DNA of 64,000 nucleotides, from positions 23,078,191 to 23,142,190 of the forward strand of contig NC_092026.1 of the NCBI RefSeq assembly GCF_042242105.1. The letters run 5' to 3'. Position numbers and translations under genes: made by a program. Of the stretch, positions 2,099 to 34,300 are shown in pieces. The notes under the pieces are model-generated. The model did no database searches. It was given only the letters and a program-made list of their open reading frames with translations, and was not told the origin of the DNA. The stretch comes from Pempheris klunzingeri (taxonomy: Eukaryota; Chordata; Actinopteri; Acropomatiformes; Pempheridae). Each line of letters begins with the position of its first letter. The stretch's first letter is position 1.

Positions 2099-3202
2099 TC
2101 ATATTGAGAATGTGTTTGTCTCTTGGGATGCATTACGGGAGTTAAATGACATCTCCATCCCGCCCTCCTCTGCAGGATTCTCTCTCCTCCTTTGTCTTCT
2201 CTTCTCGCCAAACTTCTTGGCCACTTTCATCATGTGCTGCCTGAAGGACGACCCCATGAAGGCGTAGAGGATCGGGTTGAGGCAGCAGTGAGTGAGGGCC
2301 AAGCTCTCCGTCACCTGAGCCGCCTGATCCAACACCTTACTCGTCCCACAGTGGATCACCAAGGTGTAGACCGAGTCCATCGCTCGATAGACCTTCAGCG
2401 TATTGTAAGGCAGCTGAGTGACCACAAACACACCCACGACTATGAGGAGAACACGTAGAGCTTTCCACTTCTTGCCTCTGCTCTCCACAGGGAGGCCCTT
2501 TAGTGTCTGGCCCACGCTCCAGTAGCAGACCACCATGACCAGGAGAGGAAGTAGGAATCCCAGCAGCACCTCTGCCATCTCCAAGACCATTTTCCCCCCG
2601 CCAACCATTGACGGAGGGTAGATAGCCAGACAGATGCTCCTATTAGACGCCCATCTCACTTCTGAAAGTACTAAATCAGGAAGGCCGAGGATAAAAGCTG
2701 TCGCCCAAACGACTAAACACATCCTCCAACAGTGTCTCCTGGTGAATATCCTCTGCAGCCACCCTCTTTGGTCTTTCCCTTGCACCCTGGCTAACGCTAA
2801 GTAGCGATCCAGGCTAATGCAGGCCAGCAGCAGCATGCAGCAGGTGAAGTTGACCGTGTAGCAGGCCGACACGATCTTACAGGCGACCGTCCCCAGCTCC
2901 CAGCCCCTCGCCGCGTCAGCAGCCCAAAAAGGCAACGTGAAAAGCAGGAGCAGGTCGGCCACGGCCAGGTGGGTCAGGAAGGTGTCCGTCATGGTCTTGA
3001 GGCGTTTGTGGTAGGCGTAGACGGCCACGACTAAGGCGTTTCCTGCCAGTCCAACCACCAGACACATGGTGTACATGACAGGGAGGAAGAGGGCCGCAAA
3101 GGAACGGACGTCACCCTTCTCACAGAGGGCGGGGTAGTCATCGTAGCTGAAGTTGAAGCTGATGTTTTCGTGGTAATAGTAGTCGTCCTCTGAGACCTCC
3201 AT
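2099..3202 (-). CDS. ackr4: Atypical chemokine receptor 4 (ACKR4/CCRL1)
   Basis: Seven-transmembrane receptor of 367 residues, complete. ACKR4 of other vertebrates binds CCL19, CCL21 and CCL25 at the cell surface and removes them through arrestin without normal G-protein signalling. Seen here: an acidic tyrosine-rich N-terminus ([12 protein letters not shown]) suited to sulfation, with NIS and NFS glycosylation sites; TM1 with [11 protein letters not shown]2 [26 protein letters not shown] after TM3; TM7 NPILYAFMG; and a C-terminus ending TNTFSI, close to the human ACKR4 end TSTFSI. The loop after DRY lacks the LAIVHA of signalling chemokine receptors, as expected of this class. An in-frame ATG lies 32 codons upstream at 3298, but I prefer the ATG at 3202: a good 3' splice site lies between the two, and the protein then starts like the family. 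The coding region is a single exon. Confidence 0.95.
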
Positions 3203-3216
3203 GCTAATCAGATGAA

Positions 3217-3235
3217 GCTGTGAGAGAGGACACTT
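3217..3235 (-). other. ackr4: 3' splice site before the ackr4 coding exon
   Basis: Read on minus, TCCTCTCTCACAG ends just before 3217, fifteen bases upstream of the chosen ATG. Chemokine receptor genes commonly have a non-coding first exon and their whole coding region in the next one. The non-coding exon itself was not found and would lie at higher coordinates. Confidence 0.6.
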
Positions 3236-3298
3236 TGAATTACTGTCTGTGGCCATTAAACATTCACAGCTCTGCTTCAACAATGTACTTTGAGTCAT

Positions 3299-8685: not shown

Positions 8686-9255
8686 TTACTTGGGACGAGG
8701 GTTATGTTGTCTAGGTTTCTTTTCGTGCTCTACCGTCTGTAATATACAAACAGAGTCTGAGTTTCACACAAGCACAAATATCTATATATAAATAATATCT
8801 ATAATATAACTAATTATTATAACTAATGAGAAGAGGATAAAAACAAACCACTGATCATCTTCTTCATCGGTAATCTTTGACGCAGTTTTTCTAAATGTAG
8901 ATTTGACACATTTTATTGTAAACAAAATAAATTCAAAGTCAATCAAACTTGGTCTTACTGAGTGCACGCCTCTACATCTTCCTCGTCTCCAAATACAGTT
9001 GGAACCTTGTTTACTTGTGTTCCTGTAGTTCACAGCCCCTTCTTCTGCCTATAGAAAAATGAGGTTAACATTTGAATCAAGGGCGTTCTTACAACACAAG
9101 AAAAGCTCTTTGTGGTCAGTGGATCTTCTTACCAGATCAGGAGACTGTGGTGATTGACCGTCTGTCTCCAGAGCGGCTGCATCAGTAGGAGTGAAGGCTG
9201 AGACGAGCAGGAAAACCTGCAGACACAACAGGACCAGCAGCACAGTTCTGTCCAT
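8686..9255 (-). CDS. Small secreted basic peptide, copy A (unnamed family)
   Basis: Three exons join in phase 0: 9255-9133, 9048-8959 and 8736-8686 (stop included), giving 87 residues. Exon 1 encodes MDRTVLLVLLCLQVFLLVSA, a clear signal peptide, then an acidic linker ending SPQSPDL at donor GTAAGA. Exon 2 begins AEEGAVNY after acceptor TTTCTATAG and carries SKQGSNCIWRRGRCRG, very rich in arginine, with two cysteines six residues apart and a G-x-C motif. Exon 3 gives a basic tail ending HNPRPK. The ATG at 9255 has a TATA box 37 bases upstream. The exon layout and G-x-C spacing recall the N-terminal half of beta-defensins, but the remaining defensin cysteines are missing, so that name is not justified. 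Host-defence peptide or peptide ligand are both possible. Exon borders are inferred. Confidence 0.65.
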
Positions 9256-9291
9256 GGCTGATGGGCTGAAGTTATAGCTATTACACACACG

Positions 9292-9299
9292 TTTATATA
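9292..9299 (-). promoter_or_regulatory. TATA box of peptide copy A
   Basis: On minus this reads GTATATAAAC, 37 bases before the ATG, so the 5' untranslated leader must be very short. Copies B and C have a TATA motif at a similar distance. Confidence 0.6.
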
Positions 9300-9558
9300 C
9301 TCACTGCCAAACAGCCAGTTTCATGTGTGCAGACTTGTGTATACAAACTGTATCAGACTATCTGAAATGATTTAACCACAATTTAATTACAACACTGTCT
9401 CTCTGTGGCTATATCTGATTCCTTCCCCTGCGACCCCTCCTTGGACATTCCCTGATCAGTAAAAACATGCCAGCATGTTTACAGAGAAATCTTCCATCTG
9501 ATAACTTATATGCTTGAGGTTTCTTCACCTAAACCTGAACTTCACTGAACTGTAACCT

Positions 9559-10810
9559 GTGATGACAGTGACAGTACAGAGAATACACATAAAATCACGT
9601 ATAGCTCATTATTTATACCTATTTGTTGTTGCTTATACTTATTTTGGTGCATCTGTACATCGTTATGCTGATGATACTGTTTTATATATCTACACTGTTG
9701 CCCGTAAAGTTGGAATAATTGTTCAATACCCCCAATTTTGTTAAAGCCTGAATACAGGCTTAATTGTGGTTTAAGTTTCACTGTGATATGTTTGGAAGAG
9801 TTTGATCAATAAAGTTGAGAAGATATACACTTTATTTATCAAGAATAAATCGCATTGTCACAATCATTTCATGAGAGGAGGTAAAAAACATTGTATTCCA
9901 ACTTTATGGGCAACAGTGTTTATACATATATTGTTGTGCAAACTGTTGCCCTGACATACAAGCGTCTGTGGTCTGCATTTGACTCTATGAGTCGCACGAT
10001 GTCCCACCTCAGGTTGGTGTTAAAAGCAGACAAAGCCAAGGATATATTATTTTTTAGCAAAAAAAGGTGACAGCTGTTCTTCCCTGCATCATGCCCACAC
10101 AAGGTACTCCTATTCAAACTGGGACCACCTACATATACTCAGACATCACAATGAAAGCTGTCTTTTCAATTTCATACTGAGCTTTAGTTTTACTTAGACA
10201 GTCAGGTGTTTTATCATGTAGACATGTTGGACTTTTTGTAACCATTGAACAATCATTGGAGAGTTAGACTTCATCCAACTAATAGTAATTACTTTTCTTG
10301 CAACCATCCAAAACATCTTTTAAGGAAATTATACTTAGAATTGGAATTCTTTTTTTAGGAACAGGTCCTGTTTTTCTATTAAAGCTAAGAAACATGGGGA
10401 AGTTTTGTACTTGAGCACCTCAGCTCACTCTCTTCATCTGCTGCATGCTGTCTATCAGCACTCTTCATTCATAACTGACTGTAAACCCCTCATACATATA
10501 TCCTTTAACTGCTGCCCATTTATTTGTTCACTTACCCCCTCAGTCTGTATAGAAGTTTGTAAAAAGGCTTTCTCCTACTCTGCCCCCTCAACCTGGTCTG
10601 GGCTCCAGCAGAAACTGCAGCATGAGTCCCTCAGGGGATTTTAAACCACTTTTAGAAAATCTGGAGAGAGCATCAGTGTGTTTTCTCTGTGCTAAATGTC
10701 CTGTTTGTCTGTAACTTTGTGTTGTATTTCTGCTGTTGTTTTGACCAGGTCTCTCTTGAGAATGAGACCCATGTCTCAATGAGATTATATGTATAAATCC
10801 CAGAGAGTCA
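9559..10810 (+). mobile_element. Degraded non-LTR retrotransposon (LINE) 3' part
   Basis: Plus-strand frames show reverse transcriptase fragments in the right order: HRYADDTVLY (catalytic YADD box) at about 9658-9690; LWSAFDSMSRTMSHLRLVLK with KADKAKDILFF at about 9966-10060; and KKAFSYSAPSTWSGLQQKL near 10560-10620, typical of the end of fish LINE proteins. A 3' tail with GGTCTCTCTTGAGAATGAGA follows at about 10748. Stops and frame changes show it is dead. A 226-base MITE interrupts it just after the YADD box. The class is probably L2- or Rex-like rather than L1. Confidence 0.75.
9693..9918. mobile_element. Tc1-like MITE nested in the LINE
   Basis: The terminal inverted repeats are nearly perfect: CACTGTTGCCCGTAAAGTTG at the left and CACTGTTGCCCATAAAGTTG reading inwards from the right. 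The 226-base element has no coding capacity. It splits the reverse transcriptase frame, so it inserted after the LINE. TA lies directly left of the element; the right flank is TTTATA, so the target duplication is not clean. Confidence 0.85.
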
Positions 10811-10849
10811 ACAAATCCCTCTGTTATGATTTTTACAAAATGTACATTG

Positions 10850-11300
10850 TGTCATGGTTTTGATATTCAGTCTGCTCAAATATTCAGTTTGCTGTTCATA
10901 TTCTAACTCTAACTTCAGACCCAGCCACTCTCACCTGCTCATCCCGTCAGTAGATTACCTCACCTGCTCTGTCTCCTCACTCACCTGTTCGCCATTCCCT
11001 CATTGGCTCTCGAGTATATATACCGGTCATATATACCAGTCCATTTCCACTGGCCAGGTTGTCTTTGTGCCTTAACTTTCCAGCATGCTGTTCCATGCTT
11101 ACCTCTGCTTTTTGTTTTCATCCTGACCTAGTTTTTAGCCAGCCTGTGTGCCTCTGATCCTGCTTCGGCCAGACCCCCTTGTTCTTTGTTCGCCTGCCAG
11201 GATTTTTGAATCTTTGAACTTTTCTGAGTAAAGACTGTTTACTTTTCATGCCTGCCTCATGAGTCGAGCTTTTGGGTTCTGTTGTCTTTGAACTGTGACA
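10850..11300 (+). mobile_element. Probable solo LTR (gypsy/sushi-like)
   Basis: A 451-base block opens with TGTCATGG and closes with GAACTGTGACA, the TG...CA borders of an LTR. Inside are a TATA-like GAGTATATATACC near 11012 and an AGTAAAGACTG poly(A)-like region near 11226, in the order expected for U3, R and U5. No second LTR or internal gag-pol was found. The flanking bases give no clear target duplication, which lowers confidence. Confidence 0.5.
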
Positions 11301-12026
11301 CACTTTGCAGCTTGTCAATGACAGATTTTTCAGATTAGAATATACAGAAGTATTCCAGCGTCAACCAGTAACAGATTGTGGTCATACTGGGCAGTTAGCT
11401 GTTCGGATGTGTGGAAATGCTCAGCAATGGAAGTATAAACTACGATGCATTACTTGTATATTCTTTATTTTGTCTGCAATGAAGTATACAAAGTAAACTA
11501 TAATTATTATCTGAGTAAAAGTAGATGTAAAAGTAGACATTTGTAAGCAACTTACTGCCTGCAAACAGGTGAACAGATTTTAAAGGACTCTAACCAAATT
11601 TGAACAAAACTACATATCTATGTGTTTGCAGAATGTCATTATTTATTCATGTTAACTTTCTTCTCCAATTCTTCCTTTCATCGTTAAGTTACAATGACTT
11701 ACAGCAGCATTTGGATTAACATGCACACAATTAAACAAGAAACTCAAAGGATGGATGGATGAACCTTTTATTTGAAAAATGAATTACTTGTTCTTCTTAA
11801 AAAACACTTTTTTATGTGATGTGTAAAAAGCTGTGGAACACATACAGCATTGTGAAACAATAATGACAATCTTAAATTACATATATTAATTTCTCACATT
11901 TGTAGCTGTAATGTATTAGCATAGAATATAAAAGTCATAAAATGACCAAAATGCCTAAATGCAAGGCAAAAGATAGAAGCTCTCCTGAGAAAAGATATAA
12001 TTAGTGCAGGTCTTCACTTCACTTCT
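11301..12026. other. Spacer downstream of peptide copy B
   Basis: No gene recognised. The 3' untranslated region of copy B (minus strand) probably occupies about 11750-12026, ending near the AATAAA at 11767-11772. Confidence 0.4.
11767..11772 (-). terminator. Candidate poly(A) signal of peptide copy B
   Basis: TTTATT on plus is AATAAA on minus, about 255 bases past the predicted stop. It is the first such motif downstream. Confidence 0.45.
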
Positions 12027-12939
12027 TCACTTCTGTTGTCTTTCGTGCACATTTTCCCGGCGAGGGTCTGGTGTAACACCAATCTGTGAACAGAGAGAGA
12101 AAGAGAGCCTCAGAAGGAGCCGTTAAATTCAAGACAGTTAAAAGGCAGTAAAACAAAAGTGAAACAAACTGAGACGCCCGTATCAATGGCTTGCTCTGTG
12201 TTGTACCTGAAGGCAGCATAATCAGCAGCATGGGCCACATCATGCATCATGCATAACAGCCAGAGCAGTTCAGTTCAGATTTCCTCTCCACAGGTATCTG
12301 AACTGTGGAGTGTGTTCTTTTTGCTGCATGCACTCAATTATTTTCTCCTGATTTTACTGACAAAACCTTCTTATTTGTCTGTATCATTTCTCTCCATTAA
12401 GTTGTTGTAAATACTTTTAGTGTTCAATCTACCTGTGTGAAGTCAATTTCTGCCCGGCCCTCCTGAGAGCGCTGTGACAGAACAAACACAAATAATTATT
12501 AATTGATGTCAGTGCTGTGATCAACACAAAAACAAATTCAAACACTGTTTTTTAAGATATGTATTCTGGGGCATGCACTTATTTTTTACTTATTTTACTG
12601 TAAATTTAAAAGAAAAATTCAAGAATCAAGCATTTTGTTTTACACTTGCGATGAGCACACATCCACCTCGCTTCAAGTTACACTGGGGTCCTCGTTTACT
12701 TCTGTGTCTTACTAAGCCCTCCTGAAACAAAACCAGGAGAAAATAGCCATCATTTTCCCACAGAAAACCACCTAAAAAGCCAAAAAAAGCTCCTTGTGCT
12801 TGGTGGGTCTTCTCACCAGACCAGGAGGCTGTCGTTGTTGACCGTCTGTCTTCAGAGCGGCTGCATCAGTAGAAGTGAAGGCTGAGACGAGCAGGAAAAC
12901 CTGCAGACACAACAGGACCAGCAGCACAGTTCTGTCCAT
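12027..12939 (-). CDS. Small secreted peptide, copy B (unnamed family)
   Basis: Exons 12939-12817, 12721-12644, 12471-12433 and 12083-12027 (stop included) join in phase 0 to give 98 residues. Exon 1 is the same length as in copy A (123 bases) and its first 22 codons are identical in DNA. It ends QPPGL at donor GTGAGA. Exon 2 carries SKRGPQCNLKRGGCVLIAS: compared with copy A, SK-x-G, both cysteines, RG-x-C and a final S are kept while most other residues differ. Exon 3 (13 codons) and exon 4 are supported only by splice signals (TCTGTCACAG and TCTCTGTTCACAG). An alternative donor two bases earlier in exon 2, joined straight to exon 4, would read through WCYTRPSPGKCARK and give four cysteines. 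The 3' half is therefore uncertain; the signal exon and exon 2 are solid. Confidence 0.6.
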
Positions 12940-12987
12940 GGCTGATGAGCTGAGTGGTTTGGTGCAGCTGTAACACACACGCAGATG

Positions 12988-12994
12988 TTTATAT
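12988..12994 (-). promoter_or_regulatory. TATA box of peptide copy B
   Basis: On minus this reads CATATAAAC about 50 bases before the ATG. The region further upstream also resembles that of copy A (a GATCAG word and a CATGCCAGCA word in the same order), so the proximal promoter was duplicated with the gene. Confidence 0.55.
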
Positions 12995-14249
12995 GCTCTC
13001 CAACAAAATGATTAACTCCATGTGAACAAAGAGGAGGGCATTTGTTTAACAAGTTCAATTTCATCATAATATCGACTCCCTGTGCTTGACTGGAATCTGT
13101 GCTTCCTTCTGTTGCAATCCCTCCCTTGACATCCCTGCCCAGATCAGCAAACACACTGCATGCCAGCAGCCTGTTAGATAAAAAAGTGTATTGATCCCCT
13201 GGAAGAATGTCCTGAATGTGGATAAAACCAATACAAAAGCTGTTTGGAAATAGACTTAGATCCTTTTCTTAAGTAAAACTACTAATTTACCAATCTGAAA
13301 AACTCCCTTACAAGTCAAAGTGCAGAATTCAAAATTCTACTTAGTGTTATATTTAAAATGTCCTTCAAGTCTCCAAAGCACTTCTAATAACAAATGGTGA
13401 AGAAACTGTGATATGGTCAGTGAACACACTGCCTGACTGCCTGAAACAACAAACATTTTGGAAAAATGTCAAAGAAGAAATTTCAGGATTTACAGGATAA
13501 TAAAATAGGATAATAAACTCAATTAACCAAAGCACCCAAACACTCCAAACTCTCCAAACAAAGTATACTAAGTTAATTACAGCTGTAAAAAATAATAAAA
13601 GCATACTGCCTCCATCTTGTGGCCACATCCTGCAGCGCCCAACACCACTGTGGGATAAATAAAGGCTGATCTATCTATCTGTCTACTTTGTATTCAAACT
13701 GCAGCAGAGAACGTGTTTCTTCTGTCTCCTCTTTTCTATTTTATTGATAACTGATTTAGAAACAGACAACTCAAAGAAAATAGAGAAGAAATACATTCTT
13801 TACTCTTTAGAGGATGGATTGCAGTCAGCCAGTCTCTGTTGATCGAACACATGCTTCCTTCTCGTACAATGATCAGATCCTCAATGGTCAATGGACGTTT
13901 AGGCCTTTGATAAAAGAAATGGAGCGCTTATTCCTTTGTAACCAATTTGCATCATGGTCACTATTCTTTTGTCCTTTTTTACACATTAAAAAAAAGACTG
14001 ATAAAACTACTGTAAGATATATGAGGAGAAACTATTGAACCTACTAGCCGTCTGGAGTCTTGGTTAATTTTGATGAAGTTGCATGCATGGTATCCCCTTT
14101 TTCCAGCACAAACTCAAGCTATCTGTCTGACTTCACAGTTAAAGGTTGATGAAAATGCTGTTTCACTCTTTTATACACACAAATACAGCAGAAAAAATGT
14201 CTGTTTACATGCTGTGTAAGTGATTTTATCTCAACTCTTTTTCATTGAA

Positions 14250-14460
14250 AGTCCATGTCTGGTTAAGGGTTGGAGATTTTATCTGAGACCTTGTTACTCA
14301 CTCTGATGAGATCTTAGTTATTGATGATTTCAATAGTCACCTGAATAAGGCCTCCGACCCTCTAAGTGAAGTATTTTTAGCACTTATTGGTACTTTTGGT
14401 TTCACTCAAGTGATAACAGTCTTGATCCATAGGATAGATTCATGGCAGACACAAAAGCAT
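14250..14460 (+). mobile_element. LINE endonuclease fragment
   Basis: The plus frame from 14308 reads EILVIDDFNSHLNKASDPLS followed by EVFLALIGTFGFTQ. This matches the conserved GDFN block of LINE AP endonucleases, with GD changed to DD. The frame breaks soon after. It is a short dead fragment and may be linked to the unassigned text upstream to about 13800. Confidence 0.65.
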
Positions 14461-15460
14461 CGTTGTTGGTAAGGAAATTCTTAAATCTCAGGCTCCCTCC
14501 AACAGTAAATAAGGAGCAGCCATTACAGTATGTACAGTGCCAGAACGTTTAGCGCAGGTACAGCAGCAACAAAGAGTAAAGTGACATCCATGTATCAATG
14601 CGATGGAAGTAAAGTTACATAGTGACGAACTTGAAAATTCAGAAGTTCCTCAGAGGTGTTGAGGAAGTGATGGTGCTCATCCACACAGCTGGTCCACAAG
14701 TTCAGGGTCCAGTCACATAGCGATCCAGGTCTCTGAGCTTGATGACAACTTGAGACCCCAAAGAACAAAAATGCGTTTTTTTAGACTTAAAAGCTGGTGA
14801 TATGTCAACATTATGTTTTTAGCATCAAGCATAAAGACAGAAAACAGGGGGAAACAAATAAGGTAACAACATCTAATAACTATGAGCACATCTAAAGCTC
14901 ACACATGAGAACAAGACATCTAAGGTAATTTGTTTAATATTGGCATAAAATGAAGCGTAATATCTGAGCTTTAGTTGTGGCGGTAAAGATAAACCTACAC
15001 AAAATGCGTTGTTTCTTGTGAATAACTAATTTTCATGTCCAATAGAACCAAAGGTCACAAAACCTTCAGACAGCTTTGTTGTTTTGAGTAAAATTTGGGA
15101 GTATTTGTTTGTATTTTTTAATAACTGGGCACTTCAGATTGAATTGATGATGTGTTTTCGAGAGTTCATTTGCAAATAGCCAACAGCTAATTACACTGAT
15201 ATATTTGTAAAATATCGTGGTTTGGATTAAAATGATAAGTCAAATACAGATATAAAAAGCAGTGTACATTACATACACAATATCGTCTCCAGTGTAGTGT
15301 GTAGACTACTGATAGAGGTGTGCACATAGCATCTGATATGAGTTTTAGCTGCTGTAACAGAGTAGTGAGCCACATGTCAGGACCACGAATGTTGTTGCAC
15401 CACTTCTATCGAACAGTCATGATGAAGCATCGCACATATCAAACTGCCATCTCTCTTTCT

Positions 15461-15461
<1 letters not shown>

Positions 15462-15501
<40 letters not shown>
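15462..15501 (+). repeat. CA microsatellite
   Basis: About twenty uninterrupted CA units. Confidence 0.97.
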
Positions 15502-15502
<1 letters not shown>

Positions 15503-15777
15503 TTACACATACGTTGACTGTTTTGAAATTGACCAACTCATAGTTTGCATTATGTTGTAATAAGTGCGACTCATTGGTAAAAAGGAAGCTTCACTGCAAA
15601 GTTGTTTTGACACCCATCATTTAGCTGCTATTGACAAACGCTGCTCCAACCTTACTGGTGCAGTTAGAGAACTCTTAGTGGCACAAAGCTCAGGGTTCAA
15701 TTAGCTGTAACCTAAATGTTGTCAGCTACAATAACACATAGTGGAGTGTTAGGAAGAAAATATGGTTTTGGTTGAAG

Positions 15778-15945
15778 GATTAGGTTAGCATTTTGGGAAA
15801 TAGATGAGCGGATTTATACCACTCATGTCTCTGCACAGTAAATATGAAGCTACAACTATGAGACAGCTAGCTTAGCTTAGCATAAAGAGTGGAAACAGGT
15901 GGAAACATCTAGCCTGGATCTGTCCAAACATGACAAAATGTGCCA
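15778..15945. repeat. Teleost interspersed repeat fragment
   Basis: GCTAGCTTAGCTTAGCATAA, GGAAACAGGTGGAAACATCT and AGCCTGGATCTGTCC occur in order. I know this string as a frequent fish repeat but cannot give its class with certainty. Confidence 0.5.
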
Positions 15946-16792
15946 ACCAGCACTACATCCTGCTAACAACATGTCATCTTCACACTTTGTTAAACAAACA
16001 AGAATATATGTTAGTAACGGTGGGATACGGTGCTGGTGGGTGGACTTGTTGCTGTTTGACAGTAGTTTAGTTCAGTGGGTCCCAATCAACAAAATAGGGT
16101 TGTGAGATGATTAATGAGGTAAGTAAGAGGATAAAAAAAAAAGTTCTGGTACACAAATGTGAATAAATAATTAGATTTTTTTTCAATCTTTGTATTTTTT
16201 TCCATTGAAAATATTGGATAAATGTATCTGGTTGGACTTTGAACAATTATTTAAATGAAACCATCAGAGAAGGTTAAAAGGGAAATGTCTCTTTGGATGA
16301 ACTGCAAACAACTCAAGCAAACCAAAAAGGTCGGGAGTCACATAACCACAGGTTTAATCTTAAACTACGTAGTGGTTAGACAATTATAAGATTATAGAAT
16401 AGCTCATCATATGATGTTTTATGTCAAATCTTAATGTGAATATATCTTTATATTAACTAGTAAGCTGTCAGATGAATGTAGTGGAGTTGTCTCTGAACTG
16501 TGGTGGGTTTAGTCAGCCATTAGTTACTTTTATTTGACTTATTGTTTAGAGGAGCAGTTCATTCTGTGTAAACTTTGTTGCAAACCAAACCAAAGACTTT
16601 GAATAGAAAATACACAGACAGTTTGGCACCTCATGCTACTTTGTAATTCGAATTAATACGGTCTTTACCTACAAGATTATTTGTAAAAGAGATTTTTTTA
16701 ATTCTTATAATTTATAATCTAAACAGATAGTTTGTCACACAGTCAGAAGCGAACTTCAAGCACAAAAGTTATCCAACGTTGCATCATCTGCA

Positions 16793-16925
16793 GTGGTAGT
16801 AGAAGTAACTAAGTACATTTACTCTGTAGTACTGTGCTTAAGTACGGCTTTGAGGTACTTGTACACTACTTGAGCATTTCCACTTTATGCTTTTTAATAT
16901 ACTTAAAACTACTACTTTTTCACAG
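16793..16925. repeat. Interspersed repeat abutting the broken peptide copy
   Basis: GTAACTAAGTACATTTACTC, GAGGTACTTGTACACTACTT and GAGCATTTCCACTTTATGC mark the same family as 4313-5030. Its right edge lies just before the duplicated peptide-gene segment at 16937, where that copy's first exon should be. Confidence 0.55.
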
Positions 16926-16936
16926 CACTGTATATA

Positions 16937-17127
16937 CTGATGCTCAATGACTGTATAGAGCTTTCCTCAAGGCCCCTGATTCACAGGCTGTATATACATT
17001 GCTGTGACATTTTGAAATTGATTGGTAGAGAGTGGTTTTCTGTGTAAAATGATAAATTTTGTTATAATTATGCTCATTTTGTTGCACTGAAGGTGAAGAG
17101 AACACGTTGGAAAGGATGCTGTCGTCT
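16937..17127 (+). pseudogene. Partial peptide gene, copy D (intron 1 end plus mature exon)
   Basis: This segment matches 18128-18318 of copy C: the downstream part of intron 1, the acceptor GCACTGAAG, and an exon starting at 17093 that reads VKRTRWKGCCRLTCGSGCH. No signal exon lies upstream; a dispersed repeat occupies that place. No good donor follows. It is therefore a broken tandem copy. The intron part differs from copy C at 4 of about 156 bases. In contrast, after the shared VKRTRW, the exon differs at 9 bases, 8 of which change the amino acid, yet all four cysteines remain. Rescue by a distant first exon cannot be excluded. Confidence 0.65.
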
Positions 17128-17952
17128 CACATGTGGATCAGGTTGCCACCTCCACCAGAGGTGCCTCAAAACAAAGAAAATATGGACGCCTCATTTTAGC
17201 CAAACTGAGCGTTGTTCGGTGCAGTGAAACTCAAATTGAATGGTGCTATATCGTCTTTGCACATTTACTCTTAACAAGAGCGAAATATGGTGTTTTCTGT
17301 CTAAAATATTGCATCATCTATCCTCATTTCTTCACTCATCAGTCGGTTGGAGTGAAGGTTGACAAGGTTGTTTTTATGAGATGCTCCCTCTTTATTATTT
17401 CAATGAAAAAGGTTTGTGGAGCAATTGATTACTGTAGATTCATTATTGGTTATCATGTCAGACTTGGAGCTCCGCTGTTAAGACAAGGCGCTACAGTAAA
17501 GATGTTTTAATATATTTAATTTGCTCTTAATGAGTGTGCACAGCTTGAAATAAGAAAGACTAAGGCAGGTTGCTGCACAAGCCTTGTAAAAAAAATTCAA
17601 CTTGATTTTAGAAAATATTTGAAACAAGTAGATTTGCATTGAAAACAGGTTGAAATATTCCAGCATTTTTCACTTTTGTATAGAAAATGTGACTTCAAGG
17701 ACTCAATTGCAGACTAAATGAGCTGATTTTCTTGCACTGACGCACCACGTTATTATTTATTAAGTGATCAAGGTGGGCTCCCTCGCAATCTTCCTGGCCT
17801 TTGACCTGCAGCGCTGCTGGTAAATGTCCTGCAGGTTGGGGAGGGTGGTTCTCATATGGCCAACGGACGTGAGAGTGATATCAACACTTATCACCTTATG
17901 ACTTGCATCTTGCTGGCAGCCAAACCCTGCTATAACTTCCTCTCAGAGATCA

Positions 17953-17958
17953 TATAAA
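17953..17958 (+). promoter_or_regulatory. TATA box of peptide copy C
   Basis: CATATAAATG lies about 39 bases before the ATG at 17992, matching the layout of copies A and B. Confidence 0.6.
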
Positions 17959-17991
17959 TGTGGGCTTTTTGAGGACTTCAGCCCATCAGCC

Positions 17992-18930
17992 ATGGACAAA
18001 AGTGTGCTGCTGGTCCTGTTGTGTCTGCAGGCATTGCTGCTCATCTCAGCCTTCACTTCTAGTGATGGAGTCGCTCTGGAGACAGATGATCGACAAGAGC
18101 AGCCTCCTGATCTGGTAAGAAGATCCACTGATGCTCAATGACTGTATAGAGCTTTCCTCAAGGCCCCTGATTCACAGGCTGTATATACATTGCTGTGACA
18201 TTTTGCAATTGATTGGTAGAGAGTGGTTTTCTGTGTTAAATGATACATTTTGTTATAATTATGCTCATTTTCTTGCACTGAAGGTGAAGAGAACACGTTG
18301 GAGAACATGCTGTCATCTCAAATGTAGACCAGGTTGTCTCGGCCCAATCGTGGTAAAACGTAACTTGTTTTATTTTGAACAAATTTTCTTTCTTTCTGAT
18401 TGTGAAAAAGCCAGACAAAATCCCTCAGGAGTCTATTCATCTGTGAATACACTGAGCTTGTTTTATTTATAGAAACAAAACCTTAGTTATACATCATGTA
18501 GAGACAATCTGGGAAGGAAGACACTTTTAAAACTGTGAATTATCTTTTTTTACAGTGATTTTTTCACTTACATAGACTTAAAATGGAAAAGACACAGAAC
18601 ACAGTGGGATAAAATCAGTTTACATGTAATAGACTGTATGACACTTTTATTTTTACATTTTTCATTTGTTTGTGTAAAAACTGAAACGATATTCTTTTCA
18701 ACTGTGAACGGTGAAGTCAGGCTTATCTCTTGAGTTTGTGCTGAAATAAGAGATACCATGCATGTGAGGCAAAGACAATGTAAAAGGTGTTAAACAAAGG
18801 CAACAAATCTGCAAAATTAAAATAGACTCTAAAGGGCCAGTATATGCAGTAGTTTTGTCTTATTCAACTTAAAGTACTTTTATCAGTTAATAGTTCTTTG
18901 TTTTTCTCTCTCTCTCTTCAGGACCAGTAG
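17992..18930 (+). CDS. Small secreted four-cysteine peptide, copy C (unnamed family)
   Basis: Exons 17992-18114, 18284-18352 and 18922-18930 join in phase 0 to give 66 residues. Exon 1 reads MDKSVLLVLLCLQALLLISA, a signal peptide homologous to copies A and B, then an acidic linker ending QPPDL at donor GTAAGA. Exon 2 starts VKRTRW: the KR is a good proprotein-convertase site, releasing a mature peptide of about 22 residues with core CCHLKCRPGC and an end GPIVDQ. The last exon gives only DQ and the stop after acceptor CTCTCTCTTCAG. The spacing CC-x3-C-x3-C is unlike fish hepcidin, LEAP-2, piscidin or beta-defensin; it resembles short two-disulfide peptides in general. Cell role unknown: antimicrobial or signalling peptide are inferences from basic charge, size and secretion. 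Exact donor of exon 2 could be three bases earlier. Confidence 0.68.
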
Positions 18931-19143
18931 TTTCTTGGTGGTCGACTGGATCAGCTGCGGCACCACATCTCCACTTGACCACTGACTAGAGGACTGCAGC
19001 GCACCAATCCTCAGTGATCATACATTATCAACCCAAGAACAGATCTCATCAATTCTCTGTGGAAATGTTATACATTATCTATTTTCACTGTGATTTTAAA
19101 TGACATAAATACAACAATTCACTGTTTTATGGGGTGTTTTGAT

Positions 19144-19149
19144 AATAAA
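19144..19149 (+). terminator. Candidate poly(A) signal of peptide copy C
   Basis: AATAAATAAAAG lies about 215 bases after the stop codon, giving a normal short 3' untranslated region. Confidence 0.5.
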
Positions 19150-19159
19150 TAAAAGTCCA

Positions 19160-19960
19160 CATGGAGTGCAACATGGTATACGCCTTTATTATTGCGCTGA
19201 AGTCTTTCTGTCAAACATCAAAACACAGAAGAAGCTTTTCCATAATAAATTATATCAATTAATATGAAAAACAACAGTAATGACAAAGTAAACTTTGCAA
19301 ATTTGCACAAATTTGCACACGCATCAGTCGTGGTGAAAAATTTCGTATTTTAAAGGTATCGTAAATGGGCGTGGCAAAAAGGCTCTTGGAGTGATGACCT
19401 AAACCAAACAGGAAGTCGGCCATATTGGATTTTTCACGCAGTTTTTGCCATTTACAGGGGCCGTAAATGAACGAACTAGTCCGAGGGGGTTGAAGCGATC
19501 GACTTCAAACTGAGTATATAGGACGTACCGGAATATAGGACGTCATTAGCGGCTGTTCTTTGGCGCCACATAGGGGACACAGGAAATGACGTGTAACTCC
19601 TTCACGCACTGTCCAAAATACATGAAAATTCTGAGCCGCGTAAAAGGGTCGGAGTCCAGCAACGGGACGAAGCCTGAAGCCCCGACGTGCACGGAGGTGC
19701 GAGGGCCCTCCAACGCTGCTTGCAGCTTTAATTGCAAAGCATTGGCGAGGACCCTATTGTTCTTCTACGTATTCTTATTATTAATATTTGTCTTCAGCCA
19801 CTTTGCAAGGGGAAATGGGGCGCAAGGGATAGTTGAAAACTCACCAAAATATGCAAACATTTCAGGAGTGGCGAAAAATTTGATATTTTATGGGTGTCAA
19901 ATATGTGCGTGCAGAAATGGCTCTATAGCGCCCCCTAAACGGCAGGCCCTCCCACCACTT
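19160..19960. repeat. Dispersed teleost repeat with CpG-rich text
   Basis: Words such as AATGGGCGTGGC, GGAAGTCGGCCATATTGGAT, GCAAAGCATTGGCGAGGACC and GCGCCCCCTAAAC are a familiar repeated block of fish genomes, often ending in ATTCTTATTATTA. No coding frame with a known domain was found. Class not determined; borders are approximate. Confidence 0.5.
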
Positions 19961-21433: not shown

Positions 21434-24400
21434 GTAAGGTGCCTCTTGTCAGGTTTTTGAATAAACATTGTTATCTACTATTATGCATTAATATGGTACA
21501 TTAGATTAGACAAAGGCAGCATAACATAATGCAAGATAACATTATACGACAAGGAGACTTGAGCTGTAAAACATATCATTAGATGCTCCAGACAGAGGCT
21601 TTTCTACAACTTAACTTCTGAAAATGGTTGGTTAGAGTTGCTGTATCTGAAGGGTCTTTGTTCCAGTTCAAAGAGCTTCCTATATTTTACTGGCTCTCAA
21701 GTTCCCCATGGACTTTTACCTTAAGTGTTATGTGAGGTGTCATTTAATACATAATTTTTTATACATACTTTTATATATTTATATTTTTACTTTGTGTTTG
21801 AAGTTTATCCTTATTCTTTTGGAGCTGTGTGTAACAAAAAGCAACTCAGCTTGGTCTCACTCTAGACATGATTAATATTAGTGACTTGCTTATGACAAGT
21901 TTCAGTTCTCTGGTGTTTGGGTAAGTTGGGTTGTTGGAACTTAGGAGCACATAGGACATCAGCGAACTCAGAGGCACTTTTATTATGCTTGGCAAGCAGG
22001 TGAATGCAGTTCAGAAAATAAATCTGGTTCAGTCTCTTTGTGCTTGGAGTATGTCCCAGCTCACACTCACAGTACAGTTCAGAGGGGGCTGGCGGAGGAT
22101 CAGGAAGCCAGCCCAGGGAATTGAAGTGGGCCGGACCGGTAAAATCATGGCATAATAACTTATAACGACAACTTCAGATTGTTTTCTTTGTTTTACGTTG
22201 GTCCAAAATAGTACAAGCACATTCTGAAAATGTATACATCCCAAATAAACCTCTTGACAAAACACTTAAAGTTAGTTGAAAATTCTGAGGAAAAAAATGG
22301 TGCAATTTCAAGAACAGAGACTTCAGTGTATCTACAAAGCCATTAAACTTTAAGTCACAGTTTAATTGGGATTGAACAAAATACAAAATAAATAATAAAT
22401 GAATAAAACTTAATAAAACATTTGTCATTTCCACACATTAATCCTGTGCTAACTCAACAAACCATATGTAACCAGGGTTGAAATCACTGTTTAGCCCAGT
22501 GTGTGTTTTTCCCACTTTTTTGAATGTACCATGTCACATGACACAGTCACATGACTTCAAACTCTCAATCACTTGTCTCCGAGGCACTATATAAGCTGCC
22601 CTGACCTCATGTCCCTTTTGGTTGTGTGGGAGAGAGGCCAGGGGACAACAGCTACAGGTCAGGTTTCCAAACAATTTCATACCTTAATTCAAATATCATG
22701 TAGTTTCCTGGTTTAAATCATGTTGTTTGTAACCAACCATTTAGAACCAGACCATTGCATGTGTGTTGGGGCCTGTTATCTTGTGTGCCGTGAGACTGAA
22801 CTGCTGAACTGGTGAGTTTTGAATTGTCAATTAAATGTGATGATCCATGACGGCCTGTTAGCATTAGCTACAATGTTAGCATATAGGCTAATGCTAACAT
22901 AAGAGTCTAGTAACTTGTCGACACTTACAAGGCTGATTTTGGATATCAATGTATCATGCTAACATGCTAATATGCTAACACAGGATTGTAAATGCATGTC
23001 TGATTGTGGTGTAATTTATACTACTATATGGTGAGACATGCTATGTTAGCATAGCATCCATTAGCTTTGTCTTTGAGGTTCTAAATGGATTGTTTGGTCC
23101 ATGCAGGCCAGGTGCCCTGCCTTGGCACCAAATCCAAGATGGTGAGCTAGGAAACAAGGCCAGGAGCCTGAAGAGAACTTGTTGCAGTCAGTTTCACCTG
23201 CCAGCCTGCCTACTCTCCCACCTTCTCGATCCGAGCATTTCACCACATTCATATTTCTGGATTATATGCATTTCTCCATCATTACTCCTCAAACCCAAAA
23301 AACTCTAAGCTCGTTCATTTGATCATGTGTTTTGATCAGGGAGTTAGACCTGGGTGACTGCACTGTGACTCATGTTAAGAAATTATTGGCCAATTATAAA
23401 TGTGCATTTTGAATGGTTGAATGCTAAACCAGTTATTCAGGAATTGCAGGATTGTAAATATTATGATTTTTGATTTTGTTTGGTGCACTTTATGTTTCAA
23501 TATATTTTCCATATTCAACTGCAAATACTGTGTCATCGTTTATTTACTGCACATCCCTGCCCTCCAGTAGCCGTATTTAGTTTCTTCTGATATTCTAGCC
23601 ATTTCAAATCCCATTTGTAGTTTAATTATAACTATCCTTGTATTCATTTAATACATGTTACACATACAAACCGAGGTAGAAACTATTCAAGTCGGTTGAG
23701 TTACTCCCTGCCTTGTAGGCTACACTATGGATAGAAAAATAAAAGTTGTGCAATGCATGAACCATTTCAACAAAGCAAACTCATGAACTGAAGTGACCGA
23801 CAGTATTACAGTAAATCACACACTGTTCACTTTCTTTAAATTTCCACAGAACTATATCAGGGTGCAGTGTCTCATGTAGCATTTTAAGTGGGGTCACCCA
23901 TTGTTTATTTTACTCTTGAAACCTGGCATCTTTTAGCTTTCACAAGTGCATCAATATCAGGCGTCACGTCCTGAGTGGCAGCCAATTTCAGGATGTTATT
24001 CAAGTGCTTGTGTGTTAGCCTTGAGCACAGCTTTGTTTTATTGATGCTCATTACAGAGAACTTGTGGTTCCAACCATGCACAACACTTTTGCAGCAAGGG
24101 CTGTCATGTTGGGGTAACCTGGCAAGAGATACTGATAAAATGTGTCCAAGCCATCTGCCTTCAAATCTGAGTCACACTGCAAGTCTATTATTTCAAGTTG
24201 GATGTTGACGGGCAGATCAGAAGCATTCACGGTGAATGGCGAGCAAAAGACTTTGAAGTCTTTCCCCAGTTCAGCAAAAATCTGAAAGCGTTGCTCAAAC
24301 TCCTGCAACAGTCCTGTTATTCTTTCTTTGAACTGCTTCATGTCTGCAGCATGTTGGGTCACGCTTACATCTTTCAGACAAGGAAAGTGAGCTGCATCAC

Positions 24401-27400
24401 CACCTGCGAGTTGCGCCTCCTCCCACAATGACAGCTTCAACTTGAACGCACATATGCTGTCAATACTGCGTGACAACTTTGTTGCGCCCTTGCAGCATCT
24501 TGTTCAAGTTATTCAGGTGCTCTGTAACATCCACCATAAATGCAAGGTCCTGCATCCATTCTGTGGACTGAAATTCTAACACTGGTTTGCCCTTTTCTTC
24601 CATGAACTGTTCAATTTCCTCTCGAAAATCAAAGAAACACCTCGGCTCATCGGTGTCGTACGACAGGCCAAAGGTGTGGTCTTTCTCTCTGAGAAGGCTG
24701 TCAAACTGACGGTGATTCAGGCCTCTGGATCAGATGAAATGAACAGTTTGGACGACCACCTTCATGACATTATCCATCTCTAACGACTTGCAACACAAAG
24801 CCTCCTGATACAAAATACAGTGAAAAGTCCAAAAATCACGTCCTCCATTTGCAGTCTGCACTTTCTCTCTGAACTTTGTCACAACAGCTGCTTTTTTTCC
24901 CGATCATTGAGGGCGCACCATCTGTAGCCAGGCTGACAGCGCGGGACCAGTCCACTCCGACCCTGTCCAGTGACAATATCAGCTGCTGTTGTGGTGTCTG
25001 TCATTGGCACCAACTCCTCGGTGACGGTCAAAGTGTCATCAACTCCGCGGATGAATATGGCCAGTTGCGCAACATCTGTAATGTCCGTGCTTCCATCAAT
25101 TGCAACTGAAAACACAATAAATGACTTTACTTTGCACTTCAGCTGGCTGTCCAAATCTGCCGAAAGATCAGAAATCCTGTCTGCAACTGTGTTTCTTGTC
25201 AGGCTGATATTTGCAAAAGCCTGGCACTTTTCAGGGCACACGATCTCCGCAGCCTTCAGCATGCATGTTTTCACTAAATGGTTTTGAAGCCACTGCAATT
25301 TCATTAGCAACAAGGTAGCTAGCATTCACTGCAGCCTCACTGGTGTCTCGGCTATGAGTGAACACAGACTGCTGTTTCTTCAGACCCGCCAACAATTCAT
25401 TCACCTTCTTTCTTCTCTGTTGTCCTTGAAAGTTATTGTATTTGTCGGCATGAAGAGTCTCATAGTGGCGACGAAGGTTATATTCTTTCAGCACTGAAAC
25501 ATGCTGTGAACACACAGCTTTCCCACTCACTTCCGTGAATAAATAGGAGGATGACCATTTTTCTTGGAACACTCTGCGTCCACTTTTCTCTTTTTTGGGC
25601 TGGCGACCAGTCACCCGAAGTCAGCTGGGATAGGCTCCAGCTCCCCCTGCGACCCTGACGGATAAGCGGTATAGAAAATGGATGGATGGATGGTTCAGGA
25701 AAGGTAGTTGGAGAAAAGCAAATATAAGGTTTATAGCTGTTTCTAAGGTTCCTGTATTTGAGGGTAAGTCAGACCCATTTAGGGCAAGATGTAATGAATT
25801 TTGTATCTAATAGTAAAAATTTTGAAATTAAAGAGGTTACTGGAGCATTTGGGGGTTAAACACCTTTCTCATAGGCACCTCAGTAAGAACTGCTGCCTTT
25901 TCACTTACCAAGTCACACCAACACCAACTTTTTGGCCATTACTTTTTGAAAGAGAAAAAAAACATAAATTATTAATTTGTCTGCCTGTCACTCCATTTTT
26001 CCATTCCTTAACTTAACACATTAGGATGTTTCTGTTGCTGTTTCTCTGAGGTGCTCTTCTCTTACAGCAGCAGTGTAATTTAATCTCAGACATCTTTTCA
26101 TCCCTGATGCCTATCCACTCCATTCAAAATCCATGCAACATCTTCTGCATCCTTACCCACTATTCTCATCTTGTTTCTTTATTCTTTTTTTTTTATTTTG
26201 TCAAAATGTGCTGTGGTGTGCCTCACTGAGCACTGAGAGCCCTAGGAAACAGCTGTTTGGTCTGCAAACAACATATTTATGATAATTCAGGTTACATGTA
26301 GAGCTACTTGTCTCTGCAAATAAGACTCATGCCACAATTACCAGTGTTTATTTTTGATCATGCCCCCAGTGTGGCTATATCTGTTTTTAAATACAAATCA
26401 TGTAACGTACTATGCTAGCAAACAAAGAGAAAAGTGATTTTGAAAAGAATGTCTGTGGTCATATACAGTAAGGTTGCAGATGTAAAGCTACACCCAGATG
26501 GGCAAATGAGGTTGGGATGCTCCTGAAAATCTACTGTTTGGGTAAACTGGGGATATCAATTGTTTAGCAGCAAAGAAGCGCTTGTTTAACATGTTTAACA
26601 GTCTTATAGAACAGTAGTGAAACATGTAACTGAACAGAGACTCACTACAGTGTGCAGCTATTCAAAAGCTGTTTTCTTGCATATGCATGAGATTTGATGG
26701 CGTAGTTGCACATCAGCCACTACAGTGGATGCTATTACATCATCTCATACACTGCTACCCAGTGGGAAGCCATTGCAAGAGAAAAATAAAGTGAAACCAA
26801 GATGGTCTACAGACATCAGCTTGCAGATTTTGAGTTGTATCTCCTGGTGCTGAATAAACTTGGTTCAGGCAGGACTTTGTATCGCTGCCTTGTATAGGCT
26901 ATGCTAAGGCAGACAGCTGGCAGCTGAGGATCTCCTCAGCCCAGAAGAAGAGGTGAGGATCAGCCAATCTGGAACCTCAGGCGTCCAGGAGAGAAGAGTA
27001 CAGCAGAGCTGGAGTTGGGGCAGAGTCCAGGAAGAGAGCCCCTGGGTGACATATCCCTGGATTAACATGAGCACACACATTGTAATTTATTTTGACATAG
27101 TTCTACATGCACTGTCCTGCTGCCCTAAATACTCACTAGAGCACGAAATGTGGATTAATCCACCACGGAAAATAGTTCCTGACACATATACAATTTCAAC
27201 TGTTTCCATTCCAATTTCCATCTGTTCCAAGGAAATAACTTTTAATCTTTTTTAGAAAATGAAACGTAATAGTTGGGAGCTGTATAAAGTAGGAACCCAG
27301 TCCCATGGTTTAGTTGGAAAGTACAAGTAAGTATGGTCTTATCATGGGAATTATTAATATAGAATAAAATATAGAATAATACCAGATATATCTGGGAGAG

Positions 27401-31300: not shown

Positions 31301-34300
31301 CACGTGCATGCAAGGCCAAGGTTTGTTGAATCTGACTGATCCAGGCTACTATTACTGCAGTAACATCTTATTATTAAACCCATGCAATAACACTGTAATA
31401 GATGAAAAGATCTGCCAACACCTATGACATGGATATGCTGTAGATCCTGAAAATATGACTAGACATCTTTTCCCTGACTGTTCTGTACTGTCTGCAACTA
31501 TACAAACTCTACAAGCCTCTGTTCTGTGAAATGTCATTTTAATTTAACTTCATTAAATTCTCATGTGTGGGTGCCAAACAGCATGCTGACAACAGACTGA
31601 CCAGGGACGATGTAAGACCATTACATCCACCTGCTGTGTTGCTAGTCTTTTGTTAGCGGGCAAGATACTCTGACCCAGATATTTAATAAGACCTCAGCTA
31701 TATTAGCTGGGTTGGTAGGAGTGGTGGGCCACACTAGCATATCATTAATATTAAACAAAAATACATTGGTGGCAGCCACCCCTTATCCTAATTTGCTATA
31801 CAGGAAAAAACCTTAAGGAAGTTAAGGTGCAGTGATAAGAAAACAAAAAAAACATAAACCTTTGCCTAGTCCCAACCGAAATGAGTGTCCCTATAAAATT
31901 TAACCATGTACTTATAACAAAAGCATAGAAAAATCACAGGTCAGCTTATATAGACAAACACAAGCACTGGTAGCACAGCTGAGGGGGCACAGTGGTGTAC
32001 TGCTCAGGTGACAGCACAGCCACCCCCACAGTCTTTTAAAACATGATGGACAGACCAATAGCCGCAGAGGGGACGGACCAACCCAAATGCTCTATCTACT
32101 ACTTTCCATCCCAGTGAAACTGACTACTTATGTAAAAAGAATATTGCTGTGACAAACAGCAGGCTGACGTGGATCAAACTGTTGAGTGCAGTAAAGACAC
32201 TGTAGAATTTGATGAACAACATGGCAGACTGGAGAAACAAAGAGTTAAATATCCTTCCACAAATCACATCTCTCTGAAGGTAATAAGTTGTTACTTAATG
32301 AATGATGATATAATGCCACAGCTGGCACTTTGAAAGATAAACACTGTAATTTGTCTAAAACCTTAACATTTCTACAAATACTGTAAGTGTGTAATTAGTG
32401 GCTTTACACAGTCCAACAATGGCCCAGGAGCACTTAGTGTTGTCTTATGTCAGACCTGTTGCATTCAGGTTGCTGGATGTGTCGTATCATCACACTGTAC
32501 TGTCCTGTCAGAGACTAAAGCCCTCTCTGCCTGTGTGTGCTGTATCAGGTGTGTTATACCTACAGTATGGAGAGGAGACAAAGCAGGTCAGGATGCCTGC
32601 TGAGATCAGTAGTCAGGACACCTTGCGGGCTTTGTTTGTGACTGCCTTCCCCCATCAGTTCACTATGAAGATGCTGCAGTCTCCCAGCATGGCCATCTAC
32701 ATCAAAGACACCAGCCGCAATGTCTACTATGACCTGGAGGACATCAGGTGAGGACTTTTTAATGAAGTAATTTGCAATTAAACTGATGAATTAAACTGTT
32801 GTACTCAAATACATCAACATGCGTGCCTCCTAGATTACGGTAATACATAACAAAGTACATATATTATAAAATAATAAATACAATAATATAATATACAATA
32901 ATAATAAAATGTCAGTGAAATGCCTCCTCTCACACTCAGGTGAGATCTACCTCTGAGTTGTCCCCAGCAACTGTCTCCAGTATTAACTCCAGGAATACGC
33001 TCTGGAAAGAATATCATGACAAAAATAAAATAAAAATCAATGTAAAGTTATGTATAACACATACAGTATCTGTATAAATACTGTTGTAAACTATTGTTTC
33101 TTACCAAAATCTTCCCAAACTATTCCCAGCCAACATTTTAGCTAACTAGCTAACTAATTTTCATGTAAACAAAAGTCCAAGTCCCACTGTCCACATGCAT
33201 GGGCATCAAAATTTGCATGCCATTTCAAATATACTAAAGGCTCATGCATAACTAAACAAGAATCATGAATAAAATTAGATTTTTGAACTTGGGTGTAGGT
33301 GTAGACACCTGATTTTCCTGAGGAATTGGCAGACATCTTGGATTTCCCTTGTAAAGTGTATTTTTCTTCTGACACCACTAGATGGCAGTGAAAGCGTCCA
33401 CATATGTGTGCAACAGGTCCCAGTTATACAGAATTAAGTATTATGGTGCAGACAACCAAAAATGTTGTAGAGGTTGTAGATTTACCAAAGCTGTGAGCCT
33501 GTAAACTATTATCAGAAAACGGATTCCATAAACGTGCTTTCAGGACATTCATAATTTCTGATTATAATGATTTAATAAATTCAGAATATCTGAGTCAGGA
33601 TCCGATGATTGTATTTGTTTTTTCACATTAGTAATAAATCAAAGTTATTTCCAAGAAAAAGGGTTGGATTTATAATTAGATGCTCCATAGCCATAAGATG
33701 GGAACAGGTTTACCTACAAAGACTTGTCTGATCACTCATTGATTTTGCAGTGCAAGACCTGAATTGAATCTAAATCTTAATCAGTTACATATGTGTGAAG
33801 AGTGATTTGTCATGTAATGACCATGAGCCATGAAACTGTCACTGTCTGTGTTCTGTTTGCTTCTAGAAACATCACATCCCACTCCTGTCTCAAGGTTTAT
33901 CATAAAGACCCTGCACATGTGTTTAACCACCACGCCAGGCCTGCCAACAGAGAAGGACGGGTAAGTTCTGTTTTACCCTCCATATTTTTGATTGTGTCCT
34001 ACAGCGTTGATACAGTGACCACATATAGAACAGCTGTTTTCAGTCATATTTCAGACATCAATCAATCAATCTTGATTTTTATAGCACCAATTCATAACAG
34101 TGTTATCTCCAGACTCTTTCCATAAAGAGCAGGTCTAGACCAAACTCTTTAATTAGAGAGAGACCAACGATTCAGGAATTCAACATTAAGGATTCAAGAA
34201 TCCCCACATGAGCAGCATCAGATATTATATTAGGACACAGTGGAGGAAGAACTCCCCTTTAACAGGAAGAAACCTGGAACAGAACCAGGCGCAGAGGGGG

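Follow-up and report, generated by a model that had tools for sequence, protein, structure and literature searches.

Two intact and recent copies of a secreted-peptide gene, D and E, probably bear the mark of selection for amino-acid change on their mature peptide. The excess of differences between them lies inside exon 2, the branches of both copies are accelerated, and divergence is low on either side. These results support the diversifying selection on the exon that a first-pass annotation had proposed from a comparison of D with a neighbouring copy, C. That annotation had left two explanations standing, selection or conversion of the exon from another copy; the former is favoured here, and for the latter no convincing donor was found.

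Gene D lies in the window (the whole stretch of 64,000 nucleotides analysed, C15:23078191-23142190, from a genome of 645.9 Mb, and fish DNA to judge by its relatives), within a cluster made of secreted-peptide genes A, B and D and of fragment C. The cluster is flanked by a rhodopsin-type receptor gene, which we take to be chemokine-receptor-like, and by an AIP3-domain exon. The coordinates of all features are reported in Table 1. Genes A, B and D have an exon 1 of 41 codons, coding for signal and propeptide, and carry the mature peptide on another exon. A whole-genome search with D, which may miss short or diverged copies, returned seven places, every candidate having been scored, namely A, B, C, D and three more on the same contig near 13.43 Mb, where genes G, F and E form a second cluster (C15:13426531-13434045). 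The two clusters, the first of which spans 8686-18930 of the window, are 9.7 Mb apart; G, F and E are all on the same strand, and A and B are opposite to D.

Table 1. Features of the two clusters and their surroundings. Positions refer to the window, unless given as C15 coordinates.
Feature	Position	Strand	Remarks
Rhodopsin-type receptor gene (7tm_1)	2099-3298		Pfam match
A, exon 3 including stop	8686..8736	-	by-eye reading
A, exon 2	8959..9048	-	loop CIWRRGRC
A, exon 1	9133..9255	-	
B, exon 4 including stop	12027..12083	-	by-eye reading
B, exon 3	12433..12471	-	by-eye reading
B, exon 2	12644..12721	-	loop CNLKRGGC
B, exon 1	12817..12939	-	
Fragment C	16936..17145	+	157 nt of intron 1 and first 53 nt of exon 2; motif CCRLTCGSGC
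C, exon 2 part	17093..17145	+	VKRTRWKGCCRLTCGSG and first two bases of the fourth Cys codon
Segment common to D and E	17148..19295	+	E side C15:13432836-13435001; 96.4% identity
D, whole gene	17992-18930	+	motif CCHLKCRPGC
D, exon 1 (signal and propeptide)	17992..18114	+	41 codons; predicted from sequence
D, intron 1	18115..18283	+	GT..AG
D, exon 2 (mature peptide exon)	18284..18352	+	VKR, then four-cysteine peptide
D, intron 2	18353..18921	+	GT..AG
D, exon 3, coding end	18922..18930	+	Asp-Gln-stop
AIP3-domain exon	32398-32751		
G, exon 1	C15:13426531		second cluster
F, exon 1	C15:13431114		second cluster
E, exon 1	C15:13433689		second cluster

E is an intact duplicate of D, 9.7 Mb off, and the match between the two spans 2.17 kb; both have open reading frames and GT-AG introns. 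Noncoding differences amount to 16/844 upstream, 3/165 in intron 1, 10/569 in intron 2 and 9/365 on the 3' side, for a total of 38/1943 (2.0%). Exon 1 differs at 3 of 123 positions, by two silent changes and one replacement, and exon 3 at one of 9, by a silent change. Exon 2, by contrast, differs at 11 of 69 positions (16%), and the 11 differences cluster within 52 nt. All of them are replacements, none of the 16 silent sites being changed (dN 0.243). The excess over the noncoding DNA is significant both by Fisher's test (p = 3.6e-7) and in a scan (P about 1e-5). A comparison of exon and intron in a further copy, by which the first-pass annotation had suggested its claim be checked, thus comes out in its favour when performed on E. 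The reading frame of exon 2 is kept, VKR and the cysteines are unchanged, and all three residues after the second cysteine differ.

The noncoding clock predicts 1.05 replacements in exon 2, where 11 are observed (Poisson 1.6e-8). In a codon model with time fixed by the noncoding DNA, omega for exon 2 is 12.7-13.7 when kappa is set to 1, 2 or 4 (2dlnL about 35, p about 3e-9); exon 1 yields about 0.6, which is not significant. A star tree of C, D and E was also evaluated over 18 codons, by using two sets of branch lengths set from noncoding DNA: omega is 14.6 or 12.0 for D and 14.2 or 11.7 for E, with p between 0.001 and 0.002 for each. Selection on the mature peptide accounts for what is seen in both the counts and the codon model, that is, a difference about 8 times the noncoding one in exon 2, with exon 1 at background.

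The ratio of replacement to silent changes is marginal when taken alone, because exon 2 has just 69 nt: the probability that all 11 changes are replacements is 0.018 by simulation and 0.055 by share of sites, and the corresponding figure for the 14:1 ratio, obtained when D/E are pooled with C, is 0.11-0.17. The case draws its strength from the fact that the excess is confined to exon 2 and stands out against the flanks on either side. Clustering in the exon would also be produced by a locally raised mutation rate, with no selection, and error-prone polymerases have been proposed for the mature exon of conotoxins (PMC3862624). Such a rate should raise silent changes as well, whereas D and E show 0 in 11 (the probabilities of 0.018 to 0.055 given above), and the older A/B pair is without any excess of exon 2 over its introns; this explanation is, on these grounds, very improbable.

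Still less credit is given to recent homogenisation of the intron by conversion, a reading for which C and D alone would leave room: the two copies would be older than their intron suggests, and the exon would look fast without being so. C and D do show 0 differences in the first 79 nt of C and more to the right, and exon 1 of A, B, F and G has a homogenised look. However, divergence between D and E is even, at 1.8-2.5%, along some 2 kb to the left and right of exon 2, and a homogenising tract would need to spare just 69 nt. As for the possibility that D, E or C was wrongly assembled or sequenced, all DNA-level comparisons are between copies within one assembly of one genome, and recent duplicates are prone to assembly error. 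Nevertheless, runs of N are absent from the window and from the stretches fetched around both clusters, and 11 of 11 differences in exon 2 leave reading frame and cysteines intact, something not to be expected of errors; the probability of an artefact appears negligible.

The first-pass annotation started from the comparison of C with D, which share a gap-free block of 210 nt (16936-17145 against 18127-18336) with 11 differences. Four of them fall in 157 intron bases, in agreement with the four sites originally counted, and seven in 53 bases of exon 2, where 7 of 7 are replacements. The nine differences listed after VKRTRW, eight replacements and one silent change, are as the sequence has them, but the last two, at 17146 (silent, TGC/TGT) and 17148, lie past the block. 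Similarly, the four cysteines are kept in C and D as claimed, but the third base of the fourth Cys codon of C is outside the block, since the block ends at 17145 and that base is 17146. Fisher's test of exon against intron gives p = 0.0065 for 7/53 against 4/157, 0.0014 for 9/59, and 6e-5 for the post hoc window of the first-pass annotation; by the scan statistic, p is 0.003-0.004. The contrast is therefore significant, yet few sites are behind it. A simulation of nine random changes between C and D (all cysteines kept, P 0.046; at least eight replacements, P 0.26) was set aside, as it counts the two differences past the block.

C itself is a fragment, not the gene copy it had been taken for. 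No exon 1 was found for it: tblastn in 144 kb, including the window, returned only the exons of A, B and D, and one weak match (E 0.08). Outside the block, no similarity to D was detected on either side of C (p 0.83 and 1.0; 115 and 136 nt tested). C breaks off within exon 2, after 53 of 69 nt, and the segment common to D and E starts at 17148, about where C ends, with DNA that at the other cluster lies upstream of E; the exon of C is thus cut at 53/69 nt and continues into DNA of the type found upstream of E. C and D cannot, as a consequence, be weighed as two working genes, and a claim of selection from them alone is weak. In the star tree, omega for the C branch is 5.1 (p 0.21) or, with longer branches, 3.1 (p 0.31), and as one of its codons, codon 18, has a third base (17146) that the block does not cover, the one silent change on this branch may be spurious; the changes in C are compatible with neutral drift. 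C is a leftover 210-nt piece of the D/E type of gene, adjoining the edge of the D/E segment, and could have originated as a junction fragment or as a remnant of a tandem duplication.

Other features of the window were noticed along the way. An open frame of 113 codons in all, with its ATG at 18131 and reaching 18472, takes in most of intron 1 of D in the frame of exon 2, and C has an in-frame stop in the matching stretch; the open frame is probably due to chance. An inverted stretch at 13997-14258 (- strand) is 68-74% similar to intron 2 of D (18570-18887), has no recognisable exon and may be a relic or a dispersed repeat. At 24051-25614 (- strand), broken reading frames have by eye the look of a BED/hAT-type transposon protein, their sole Pfam match being a zinc finger just below cut-off, in one of three frames.

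Tight clustering, with 11 differences in 52 nt, would also be left behind by gene conversion or segment switching, if a tract from a diverged paralogue had overwritten exon 2 of D, of E or of both. With exon 2 taken from a diverged donor, the excess would reflect the age of the donor, not recent selection in D and E. Silent changes are too few to decide, and there is a precedent in snake toxins, for which the replacement of short stretches of exon by unrelated sequence has been described (PMC2711939). Exon identities, on the other hand, are 86.8% for C/D, 86.8% for C/E and 84.8% for D/E, i.e. the three are nearly equidistant, and in the exon part of the block (53 bases) D has 4 private sites, E has 4 and C has 2, one more site showing three states. 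The four private changes in each of D and E, together with the three-state site, imply that at least two conversion events would be needed. A neutral donor should moreover have brought silent differences too, of which D/E has 0 in 11. No donor exon emerged from the whole-genome search with D, within its limits for short or diverged copies. Over 284 kb around the two clusters, the search for a donor or another CC-type exon gave only short weak matches, with tblastn E of 0.011 or worse (0.011 at C15:13379699; 0.029 at C15:23176903), in addition to several chance matches to the CC-C-C pattern in low-complexity or stop-rich frames. A single conversion event would leave the pattern unexplained, several from unseen donors could account for it; conversion is on the whole unlikely, and selection on the mature peptide remains the preferred reading.

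A and B are much older copies, and the only older pair compared segment by segment. Their gapped identity is 94% (116/123) in exon 1, 74% in the 5' flank, 72% (57/79) in intron 1, 74% (54/73) in exon 2 and 75% (70/93) in intron 2; within exon 2, dN (0.29) is lower than dS (0.67) in 14 alignable codons. The first-pass annotation had indicated that further copies, whose exon evolves no faster than the intron, would refute its claim, and A/B is a result of this kind: exon 2 is not always faster than the introns in this peptide family. The reason is either that subfamilies differ in the selection they undergo, or that the signal is masked by the age of the divergence.

Exon 1 of A, B, F and G shows 0 to 0.5 silent differences per about 34 sites in all six pairs, the extreme case being B and G, with one different base in 123, and intron 1 and upstream DNA of the same genes differ by 10-25% even in the best local stretches. 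This frozen exon 1 points to homogenisation or to constraint on the DNA or RNA. Since its silent sites are nearly frozen in all six pairs, no claim of selection is made for exon 1 of A and B, where 7 replacement and 0 silent changes are found. A chimeric origin of D, with exon 1 joined to a C-like module, was also considered, the gap-free similarity of D to A/B stopping at 18131 and that to C starting at 18127. It was dropped as the main reading, as the D/C intron aligns piecewise to the B intron (p 0.002-0.018; only 0.05-0.14 with the A intron) and the sequences of D and E agree through 18127-18131.

A homologue search with D alone gave no match, but profile searches identified 36 relatives, all uncharacterised: 31 carry the name of a fish species and 5 are nameless. 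Among them are the percomorph proteins LOC122993417, LOC125902503 and LOC144405523. The species of two relatives were confirmed as Percomorphaceae, and the remaining ones we take to be percomorphs as well; the name "percomorph signal-exon peptide family" was coined in this analysis. A homologous signal/propeptide exon, MD[KR]..VLLVLLCLQ.., is conserved in A, B, D, E, F, G and the relatives, and in the genomic sequence of these six genes a phase-0 intron separates it from the exon that carries the mature part. Among 29 precursors (A, B, D and 26 relatives), compared in 406 pairs, median identity is 76% for residues 1-29 and 29% from residue 41 onward.

The loop C-x3-x-G-x-C, often in the form C-x3-P-G-G-C, is present in 26 of 42 sequences, namely 22 of the 36 relatives plus A, B, F and G; as 14 relatives are without it, the loop is common but does not define the family. 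Pro occupies position 5 in 17 of 27 distinct loops, and Gly position 7 in 23, the pattern itself fixing two Cys and one Gly; variability peaks at the three residues that follow the first Cys (entropy 2.3-3.1 bits). D and E lack this loop and carry C-x3-C-x-P-G-C instead. The arrangement CC-x3-C-x3-C of D, E and C is found in 0 of 36 relatives, and looks therefore like a derived four-cysteine framework. In the group of relatives P0017, P0013, P0029 and P0009, a tuna precursor has three loop units, of which two are nearly the same, precursors from stickleback and Lates have two loops, and a grouper gene model bears the isoform number X18; judging from these precursors, mature exons in tandem, or alternative ones, may be a frequent trait of the family.

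No Pfam or NCBIfam model reached its cut-off for the peptides tested, solved structures gave no useful match, even with the profile, and Rfam gave none. Viral and prokaryote collections contained no relative, which is unsurprising for a fish gene. Among the top full-text matches listed, none was recognised as a description of the family, and no paper was found under six of its locus names.

The cysteine order CC-C-C of D, E and C also occurs among the frameworks of conotoxins, the peptides of cone snails, and no link of the fish peptide family to venom is known. Likeness to conotoxins extends to the evolutionary pattern: PMC3862624 reports for them a conserved signal exon and a fast mature exon, with Dn > Ds in several superfamilies, and introns conserved within a superfamily, as here. 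The gene described here is, by contrast, a vertebrate one, and canonical members have one C-x6-C loop. No conotoxin homology emerged from Pfam, all conotoxin scores being under the curated cut-offs (in bits, 19.2 against 25.1 for F with PF02950, 13.6 against 21.6 for E with PF07365, 12.7 against 27 for A with PF16981). The conotoxin models for E and F, chi-conotoxin and filovirus glycoprotein for A, and heat-stable enterotoxin ST for D (E 0.0036), all below cut-off, were taken as chance or cysteine-pattern matches. A hepcidin model is absent among the Pfam matches; hepcidins have eight cysteines. They share with the present genes the short secreted cysteine peptide, and positive selection is reported for that of miiuy croaker (PMC3325200). 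Fish beta-defensins are also small secreted cysteine peptides, and in cod the gene consists of three exons separated by two introns, its mature peptide having six conserved cysteines (PMC3636224); after exon 1, two cysteines are found in A, B, F and G, and four in D and E.

According to the proposed scheme, exon 1 would code for signal and propeptide, exon 2 for a KR site followed by the four-cysteine peptide, and exon 3 for two residues and the stop. The precursor, as predicted from its sequence, would presumably be secreted and cut after VKR, yielding a 22-residue peptide with two disulfides. Selection for amino-acid change would target this mature peptide in D and E, and might be exerted by a changing partner. 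The most likely role, with about an even chance of being the right one, is that of a host-defence peptide, whose loops would change in an arms race; mating or chemosensory signals, or another secreted effector, are the alternative. Small size, net charge (+1 to +5 in six putative core peptides), gene clusters and rapid change appear to fit host defence best, although reproductive or chemosensory signals evolve similarly.

It is conceivable, and we advance it only tentatively, that the family represents an undescribed arms-race peptide system of percomorphs, organised like a venom superfamily, with a frozen signal exon and mature exons that would be duplicated, shed as orphans such as C, driven at an omega of about 13 and led to new disulfide frameworks, CC-C-C beside C-x3-PGGC. 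Given the precedent of conotoxins, the evolutionary mode is already known; the family and the fish setting appear new. The D/E pair offers an unusually clean natural test, in which the 69-nt exon is timed internally by the roughly 2 kb of flank and introns that surround it. Identifying the target of the family would reveal the force behind such change in a setting other than venom, the ordinary tissue of a fish.
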